48,821 bases of DNA from NCBI GenBank assembly GCA_003225215.1, contig QIBC01000078.1:1-48821 (forward strand), read 5' to 3'. Origin of the DNA: Acidobacteriota bacterium. Lineage in GTDB: Bacteria > Acidobacteriota > Terriglobia > Terriglobales > Acidobacteriaceae. Numbering within the stretch: the stretch's first letter is position 1; every line of letters begins with the position of its first letter. The notes under the pieces are model-generated. The model did no database searches and had not been told where the DNA came from. It was given only the letters and a program-made list of their open reading frames with translations. The position numbers were made by a program, and so were the translations under genes. Positions 36,859 through 39,272 of this stretch are shown here, in pieces.

Positions 36859-37386
36859 TTAAGGCAGGGAAGAAAGGAGATCTGCGATTGGAGCGTTATC
36901 GCCAAAGGTCTTGCTGAGGTGGCTATAGCGATCCAGGTTGCCGGGGCCGAAGACGAAACTGCCCCCTAGCTGAAAGGGGTTCTTTCCAAAACGGTGTTGC
37001 CCATGTCCGGCCTCTCTTGCGCGTTTGCGCGCAATCGCGTTGTCCTTGCGCAGGATGTGGAGCACGGACGCGCGCTGCAGTTGAGCTGCGTCGTAGGCTT
37101 TCCGCTGCTCGTCGACAAGAAGTGGGAATCGAATGCCAGTCTCATCGCGAAAAATCCGGGCATAGTTCATGTCGCCGAGGCCGATCGCGGCGAGGCGTGT
37201 TCCCCTTGAGACAAATGCCTGCTGATTTGCGCTCAACTGCGCAACGTGCTCGCGGCAGAAGATTCAGCCGTAGTGGCGCAGAAAGACGATTACCGCCGGA
37301 CTGTCCGCCCACAGTGAACCTAATTTCACCTCCTGGCCGTGAGTATCCGGCAGAATAATCTCTGCAAGTCTGGCACTGAAAGACAT
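36859..37386 (-). CDS. Candidate selenoprotein: AhpC/TSA-like redoxin with UxxC site
   Basis: Reading from ATG 37386, 40 codons give a normal redoxin start (EIILPDTHGQEVKLGSLW, then VIVFLRHYG). Next is an in-frame TGA (codon 41, 37264-37266), and the frame then continues without a break for 134 codons: IFCREHVAQLSANQQAF, IGLGDMNYARIFRDETGI, FPLLVDEQRKAYDAAQL and QLGGSFVFGPG. In Cys homologs of this peroxiredoxin-like 2 (AhpC-TSA_2) family the motif is FLRHxGCxFCREH, so TGA replaces the first Cys of CxxC. Reading it as selenocysteine gives a 175-residue protein with UxxC. A hairpin follows at 37227-37244. A simple nonsense mutation (TGC to TGA) is the alternative. Confidence refers to the frame and family; the Sec reading is less certain. 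Confidence 0.75.
37227..37244 (-). promoter_or_regulatory. SECIS-like hairpin downstream of the in-frame TGA
   Basis: On the minus strand, TTGCGC and GCGCAA make a perfect 6-bp stem around a 6-nt loop AGTTGA. The loop starts 26 nt after the TGA and has G at its second position and GTT inside. Bacterial SECIS elements need a small stem-loop with an early G in the apical loop about 16-37 nt from UGA. An overlapping 8-bp alternative stem with a bulged C exists closer to the TGA. Confidence 0.5.
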
Positions 37387-37469: not shown

Positions 37470-37832
37470 TCATGCGGCTTGTCCGCAGGCCTGCATCGCT
37501 TCGAACTCCGACGAATAGATTTCAAATACGGTATTTAGCCTGGTAATGCGAAGCAGATCGCGGACCTTGTCGGAGGCGCCACCTATCAATAGGAGGCATC
37601 CGAGAGAGCGCGACTTTTCCATACATGCAACCAGGGTTCCCAAACCTCGAGCATCAATCTGATGAATGGCCGTAAGACTCAACACACAGATCGAGAATTG
37701 CGAGAGCACACTATCGACACACTTTTTAAGCAGCTGAGACTCTTTTCCGAACTTTAATTGTCCGCGACAACGTATGAGTGCGATTCCCTGTTCTGCAAGG
37801 ATTTCCAAATTCAATTGCAATGAATCCTCCAT
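37470..37832 (-). CDS. STAS-domain protein (anti-sigma factor antagonist-like)
   Basis: 120 residues, one STAS domain. Strand 1 is IALIRCRGQLKFGKESQLL; the phosphorylation-loop region reads CVLSLTAIHQIDARGLGTLVACMEKSR, where DARGLG replaces the usual DSxGLG, so the Ser phosphorylated by RsbW-type kinases is an Ala. The C-terminal helix is LLRITRLNTVFEIYSSEFEAM. It probably binds a sigma-factor kinase or a signalling partner without being switched by phosphorylation at the usual place. AAGGAG lies 9-10 nt upstream of ATG 37832. A second STAS protein is 1 kb away. Confidence 0.88.
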   Translation of the reverse strand: MEDSLQLNLEILAEQGIALIRCRGQLKFGKESQLLKKCVDSVLSQFSICVLSLTAIHQIDARGLGTLVACMEKSRSLGCLLLIGGASDKVRDLLRITRLNTVFEIYSSEFEAMQACGQAA

Positions 37833-38158: not shown

Positions 38159-38749
38159 TCACTGGCCGTACTGCGTCGTGTAGTGCAACTTAATGACACC
38201 GCAGGTGCCCTGCTGATCTGAGTACACCACACATGTGTCAAAGGGGCGTGAATAAACGTGCAGGCTCACAGCGCGTTGCTTTAGTTCTGCCGGGTTATAG
38301 ACTCGATGAACGGGTTCCTTCGGATCGACCGCCACGGGGTTTGTCGGATTCATTTCCACAGTGTCAGTAGGTTCGATCCTGCACGTGCCGGCATCAACGT
38401 CCTGTGCCAGGACCCGATAGTTCTGCACCCTAAGCGCGCCAATCGGCGCCGCCATCCAACAATTCTGATCACGATGATTATGAATCGAACTCGCCTGTCC
38501 AATCTCCCAGCAGATGGCGACTAATTCATAAAGACTGTTCTTGTCGATCAGGTTCCGAGTGTAGTGCTGACGGTCCCAGAGGAGATATGGAGAAAGACTC
38601 TCCGGGTTGACTGGGTGTTCGCAGAGAAAGCGTTGCACAGCATCGACATGCTCGAAGCTTGAAACAGGCAGCTTCCGGAGTTCGGAAGTGAAATCCTGTA
38701 TCGACAATAGATTTTGCGTACGCGGGCTGGCGATAGACATAGTTCTCAT
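38159..38749 (-). CDS. cdo: Cysteine dioxygenase
   Basis: 196 residues from ATG 38749 (GGAAGA upstream). The iron site is plain: SSIHNHRDQNCW, with H90 and H92 and the Cys (C97) that in the mammalian enzyme crosslinks to Tyr, then HVYSRPFDTC giving the third His. It oxidises L-cysteine to cysteine sulfinate with O2, the first step of cysteine breakdown toward taurine and sulfite. The presence of the crosslink Cys is not universal among bacterial CDOs. Upstream frame to 38905 is rejected. Directly downstream of a STAS gene in the same direction (40 bp gap). Confidence 0.93.
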   Translation of the reverse strand: MRTMSIASPRTQNLLSIQDFTSELRKLPVSSFEHVDAVQRFLCEHPVNPESLSPYLLWDRQHYTRNLIDKNSLYELVAICWEIGQASSIHNHRDQNCWMAAPIGALRVQNYRVLAQDVDAGTCRIEPTDTVEMNPTNPVAVDPKEPVHRVYNPAELKQRAVSLHVYSRPFDTCVVYSDQQGTCGVIKLHYTTQYGQ

Positions 38750-38789
38750 TATTATCTTCCAATTGGACGCTCGAGTCGCTGCCGGTCGC

Positions 38790-39272
38790 CTAGTCTCGTC
38801 CGCCCATGCTGAACTCCGAAAGTTCCTGCGCGCTCGAGAGTATGTGGAAAAGATCGTATAAGTATGTGGTTCGCAGTACACTCTCAACCTTTCGCGACGG
38901 GGCAATCAGTTTCAGGTCACCGCCTCGCGTTCGGGCAGACGTCAAATGAGAGGCAAGCCTGCCAACACCAGTGCTGTCCATATGATTGATGCCGCTCAGA
39001 TCGAGGGCAAAAGTTGGGCGTCCTCGCTGTAGCATCTCCAGGCACTTGGCGGAAAAGATCGTGACCGTGTCGCCGATAGTGATGCGTCCCGAACAGCGAA
39101 GGATAGGGATCGACCGAACTTGGTAGTCGACGATAATGTCGAGCTTGCGTCGATCAAGACCGCCGCGGCGATCGGCGACCCGGCGCTCCGGGCCGCTGTA
39201 ACTCGGTGCGAGGCGACGGTCTCGCGCGACTCGCATTGGCCCTTTTCGGCGTTGTTGTTTCCTGCGCTCCAT
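38790..39272 (-). CDS. STAS-domain protein with basic RR-rich N-terminus
   Basis: 160 residues. The first 45 residues are full of Arg (MERRKQQRRKGPM, then SGPERRVADRRGGLDRRK), the GPERR-type motif often found before STAS, PilZ or CheW-like domains in soil bacteria. The STAS domain follows: IPILRCSGRITIGDTVTIF, FALDLSGINHMDSTGVGRLA with the phosphorylatable Ser (DSTGVG) intact, and VESVLRTTYLYDLFHI. It is the phospho-competent partner to the Ala-type STAS protein 1 kb away. Probably an anti-anti-sigma factor; the kinase is not in the window. Confidence 0.88.
   Translation of the reverse strand: MERRKQQRRKGPMRVARDRRLAPSYSGPERRVADRRGGLDRRKLDIIVDYQVRSIPILRCSGRITIGDTVTIFSAKCLEMLQRGRPTFALDLSGINHMDSTGVGRLASHLTSARTRGGDLKLIAPSRKVESVLRTTYLYDLFHILSSAQELSEFSMGGRD

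Follow-up and report, generated by a model that had tools for sequence, protein, structure and literature searches.

The 48,821-nucleotide stretch of Acidobacteriota DNA analysed here, hereafter the window, very probably (about 95 %) harbours a gene for a 175-residue selenoprotein of the PRX-like 2/SelL-related redoxin group, in which, judged from sequence comparison, one in-frame TGA is read as selenocysteine (Sec).

Gene structure and genomic context

The gene is located on the minus strand (37386 to 36859) and its frame is, upon translation, interrupted solely by one TGA: 40 codons (ATG counted) precede the TGA, and 134 codons and the stop codon TAA follow. The original prediction of a frame of 40 + 134 codons, broken only by a TGA in place of the first CxxC Cys, is thus confirmed by translation; the surrounding motif FLRHYG-U-IFC-REH places the TGA exactly at the first Cys of the CxxC seen in relatives. 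The following features were assigned:

36859..37386, minus strand: predicted complete selenoprotein gene, PRX-like 2/SelL-related redoxin; ATG at 37386; 175 sense codons, one of them the Sec-TGA
37264..37266, minus strand: in-frame TGA, codon 41, predicted Sec; opens the U-x-x-C redox motif and is found at this site in every orthologue read out
37255..37257, minus strand: TGC, Cys44, second residue of UxxC; read from the sequence, column C44 invariant in alignment A2
37227..37244, minus strand: SECIS-type hairpin TTGCGC-AGTTGA-GCGCAA, beginning 22 nt past the T of the TGA
36861-36859, minus strand: terminal stop TAA of the selenoprotein gene, from translation
36859..37236, minus strand: fragment ORF with TTG start, as listed by a mechanical caller; the true gene start lies further upstream, in a half that is conserved and evolves under purifying selection

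The mechanical ORF list contains exactly the fragment 36859-37236 that routine annotation had been expected to yield. A gene for cysteine dioxygenase type I (38159-38905, minus strand) is located upstream of the selenoprotein gene, occurs close to it in one congener (L017) as well, and is flanked by genes for two STAS-domain proteins (37470-37832 and 38790-39272, minus strand). Within 1.5 kb of the selenoprotein gene, no conserved neighbour genes were detected beyond small groups of close relatives.

Conservation of the TGA codon

The search of 399 class genomes yielded 25 close homologues of full length, that of the window among them, all with a single TGA; the other 24 are 58–86 % identical to the window protein. 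A wider sample of the phylum contributed six additional homologues from other families (58–65 % identity), again all with a single TGA, bringing the total to 31 full-length close homologues with one TGA each. The scan of genome contigs yielded only three relatives. One homologue of the same class (L040/G170) has a sequence identical to that of L045, from a named Acidobacteria gp2 MAG, and the assignment of the organism to the acidobacteria is based on this identity. The position of the TGA is identical in all 29 homologues read out (the 25 of the class and four of the six loci from the phylum sample), and the motif across the class homologues is FLRHYG-U-[IV]FC. No close Cys orthologue was found among the 399 class genomes and the wider phylum sample. 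The nearest Cys forms in the tree (L046 and L047, from Chloroflexi and Planctomycetes MAGs) are 32–34 % identical and carry TGC at this site, so that the in-frame UGA occupies a redox Cys position with Cys homologues, as is expected of bacterial selenoproteins. An alignment of homologues had been proposed as a check of the original prediction, with a TGA unique to this strain as the outcome speaking against it; the TGA is instead common to all close relatives found, and Cys occurs in distant ones.

Within the genus, dN amounts to 0.07–0.12 versus a dS of 0.75–1.67 on both sides of the TGA (dN/dS about 0.05–0.14), and the low dN relative to dS in the downstream half indicates that it is translated in the same frame. 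These data bear on the explanation that the locus is a pseudogene, i.e. a Cys redoxin in which TGC was turned into TGA by nonsense mutation or sequencing error. Such a change would require one base only and the more distant homologues L046 and L047 do possess Cys; however, the TGA is common to every full-length close homologue in 31 genomes, dN/dS is low downstream of it and the hairpin described below is conserved. Based on the shared TGA and the purifying selection downstream, this explanation, regarded as extremely improbable, was rejected.

A distant homologue from the same bacterial family (L041:1501-2007) retains the TGA within the motif WLRHFG-U-QFY, with the second Cys replaced by Tyr, and possibly represents a one-Sec variant.

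Protein family and predicted fold

With the TGA read as a residue, the window protein matches Pfam AhpC-TSA_2 (PF13911) with an E-value of 1.3e-15 and 58.1 bits (gathering cut-off, 27 bits), and also AhpC-TSA (pfam00578, 5.5e-12) and Redoxin. The match to NCBIfam NF040769 (SelL-related redox protein) covers the full length (7e-34) and at 116.9 bits remains just under the cut-off of 120, so that the protein is related to this family without strict membership (at least 120 bits). NF040769 is matched by all 37 aligned proteins, and most members of this family across the phylum carry TGA, UxxC, UxxU and CxxC forms all being represented. In the tree, the subfamily of the window protein forms one well-supported clade with Sec in 25 of 25 members. 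A second SelL-related gene of the same genome (L077:1477-2001, contig C101), whose TGA occupies the corresponding motif position (FLRHFG-U-PFC), is placed in a different branch.

The AlphaFold2 model, run on the 37-sequence alignment, reaches a pLDDT of 95.7 over the full length and positions residue 41 just before the active-site helix. Among solved structures, the closest is that of PRXL2B, human prostamide/prostaglandin F synthase (9usa; Z 23.3, 1.5 Å over 158 residues), which ranks above Bcp/PrxQ-type peroxiredoxins in the structure comparison and is also the top PDB sequence match; ResA ranks next in sequence and Foldseek searches. Both the PF13911 score above the gathering cut-off and the PRX-like 2 fold, in which C/UxxC is located at the active-site helix, agree with the PRXL2/SelU-like superfamily, and the earlier assignment to peroxiredoxin-like 2 proved right. 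The canonical peroxiredoxin motif PxxxT/SxxC is absent, FLRHYGUIFC having no Thr/Ser three residues before Cys44, and the motif is UxxC and not the UxxU of SelL.

Selenocysteine machinery

A tRNA-Sec gene (64.4 bits; ARAGORN likewise calls tRNA-SeC) is present in the genome to which the window belongs (4.94 Mb in 421 contigs, 88 % complete), together with genes for SelA (562 bits), SelB (381 bits) and SelD (364 bits). All four components of bacterial Sec insertion (selA, selB, selC and selD), a search for which had been advised, are therefore present, and an absence of selB or selC, which would have spoken against Sec, does not apply. The selD gene itself (L048) has an in-frame TGA near the N-terminus (KAAG-U-ASK). 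Of the 25 class genomes with the gene, 24 possess selA and 23 tRNA-Sec, and every one at least one of the two (25/25); the association of the gene with selA is only modest (hypergeometric P = 0.002), because selA is present in most of the class.

Since the frame would be open under any recoding, UGA might also be translated as Trp or Cys owing to an altered code or to readthrough in general, with no Sec involved. UGA, however, serves as an ordinary stop, ending eight of 17 window ORFs checked and constituting the terminal stop of many orthologues; moreover, the full Sec machinery is present and, within the gene, UGA sits only at the redox Cys. A change of the genetic code was rejected on the grounds of ordinary UGA stops and Sec machinery, and recoding without Sec in general is rated very improbable.

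SECIS-type hairpin

The bacterial SECIS signature is a small apical loop containing a G just after the UGA (PMC1088965). A SECIS-like hairpin, originally placed 20–37 nt downstream of the TGA, was found at 37227-37244, is conserved and agrees with this signature in having a small G-containing apical loop. Orthologues outside the genus have the hairpin TCGCGC-AGTT-GCGCGA at the same place, 22 nt past the T of the TGA; members of the window's own genus have a 3' arm displaced by 2 nt and hence a 6-nt loop, and L016 contains a mismatch. In 22 orthologues outside the own genus, the five codons from +7 to +11 past the TGA (V A Q L R) have a synonymous entropy of zero, compared to about 0.8–2.4 bits at most other conserved positions of the gene. 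The Leu of the hairpin is encoded by TTG in 22 of 22, while TTG accounts for 11.5 % of the Leu codons elsewhere in these genes.

In the more distant Sec relatives L056, L059 and L067 the stem changes on both sides. With four distant relatives added (L056, L059, L067 and L075), two pairs are changed on both sides, which is a small number of such events; the covariation score of the hairpin, which rests on these few events, exceeds those of all 500 shuffles and all slid versions. A SECIS covariance model built without the own genus, which scores primary (coding) sequence besides structure, retrieved the window site as top match in the whole genome (E=2e-19) and recovered the four held-out phylum loci L090-L093, coding similarity contributing in both cases. 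Nothing convincing was detected by this model as further selenoproteins of the window's genome (next match, E=0.01). When the model was applied to eleven loci of Cys homologues, weak scores were obtained for L046 and L047 and none for the others; the AGUU hairpin is absent from the nearest Cys homologues. Sec and Cys forms of the wider family are told apart only by the specific, conserved AGUU hairpin; the energy of the best hairpin past the codon does not suffice by itself (P=0.42). At gathering thresholds, no Rfam family matched the window.

The hairpin also bears on the reading of the TGA as a real stop, followed by an internal restart at TTG 37236 and synthesis of a 125-aa protein. The mechanical ORF 36859-37236 exists and its Leu TTG is conserved, but the latter is accounted for by the hairpin, the flanking codons of which are equally frozen. 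Furthermore, the fold is predicted as a whole (pLDDT 95.7), whereas the fragment would be devoid of its first strands and of both redox residues, and purifying selection also acts on the 40 codons at the N-terminus. With the upstream half under selection and the TTG explained by the hairpin, the restart was rejected and is deemed most unlikely.

Proposed mechanism and function

Comparative evidence suggests that SelB and Sec-tRNA-Sec bind the hairpin just past the UGA, such that Sec would be inserted at codon 41 without termination. In the predicted thioredoxin/peroxiredoxin fold, a model of high confidence, Sec41 would be located at the N-terminus of the active-site helix. By comparison with other UxxC/CxxC redoxins, Sec41 is most likely the nucleophile attacking a peroxide or disulfide, after which Cys44 and Sec41 may form an internal selenenylsulfide to be reopened by a thioredoxin-type reductant.

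By analogy, peroxide chemistry is considered slightly more probable than even and disulfide exchange somewhat less than even. That the selenoprotein is chiefly a thiol-disulfide oxidoreductase and not a peroxidase, an alternative concerning function and not Sec, deserves serious weight short of even odds: UxxC/CxxC is thioredoxin-like, ResA ranks next in sequence and Foldseek searches, and a near class was named Prx-like thiol:disulfide oxidoreductase in the literature (PMC13188914). On the other hand, the nearest fold, PRXL2B, is an endoperoxide reductase ranking above the other matches listed, no N-terminal hydrophobic export segment was seen in the window protein, unlike in ResA, and the gene neighbourhood outside the genus contains no conserved gene suggestive of a disulfide pathway. 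For peroxidase activity, an organic or lipid peroxide may, as a first guess by analogy with PRXL2B, be the substrate.

Relation to known selenoproteins

Sec is already known in this superfamily from eukaryotic SelU, SelL, bacterial pfam13911 UxxS and Prx-like UxxC/UxxU proteins. SelL, a UxxU diselenide Prx-like protein with two Sec, has been described from fish and marine bacteria (PMC2397514, PMC3316567) and as restricted to aquatic organisms (PMC2397514); the window protein of the same superfamily possesses one Sec (UxxC). SelL-type UxxU genes (ULPU, ULLU) with the shared AGUU hairpin were observed in the Acidobacteriota relatives L056, L059 and L067. Eukaryotic SelU/PRXL2, represented by human PRXL2B (9us9/9usa), shares 27 % identity over 158 residues and has C44/C47 at the U41/C44 site; the human forms have Cys, whereas the window protein is bacterial and has an in-frame bacterial-type SECIS. 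A Sargasso SelU sequence was judged eukaryotic, and a bacterial SECIS was not found for it (PMC1088965). NF040769 is matched over the full length, but the window protein remains below its cut-off and belongs to a well-supported Sec-only clade of its own.

Two prokaryotic catalogues record Prx-like UxxC/UxxU and pfam13911 UxxS selenoproteins (PMC9312934, PMC13188914). The bacterial AhpC/TSA selenoprotein with pfam13911 (PMC9312934) shares the Pfam domain with the window protein, the second motif residue being Ser there and Cys here. Prx-like UxxC proteins share the motif and pfam00578 matches here, too, but the better match is AhpC-TSA_2; this comparison is with the catalogue entries by description. 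In the catalogue entries consulted and likewise by description, pfam13911 (cd02970 in PMC13188914) is paired only with UxxS and never with UxxC, and term searches of the two catalogues did not retrieve Acidobacteria. For one Acidobacteriota genome, a tool paper lists no more than three known selenoprotein genes (PMC12013277). The suggestion that Sec in this subfamily may be new thus holds in part: the UxxC subfamily and its spread in Acidobacteriota seem to be unlisted, but Sec in the superfamily is known and an NCBI SelL-related model exists.

A tentative broader reading, put at a little under even, is that of a Sec-obligate bacterial SelU/PRXL2 branch, widespread in Acidobacteriota, which would correspond in bacteria to eukaryotic SelU and share its SECIS type with SelL-like UxxU genes. 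If such a branch exists, the failure to find a close Cys form suggests a substrate or redox step requiring selenium. The PRXL2B match points to lipid peroxides as candidate substrates by analogy. Genes of this kind are cut short or dropped by ordinary gene callers, and the frozen five-codon hairpin provides a ready SECIS pattern for finding more of them. The present locus and its relatives indicate a sizeable, apparently uncatalogued use of Sec in an abundant bacterial phylum.
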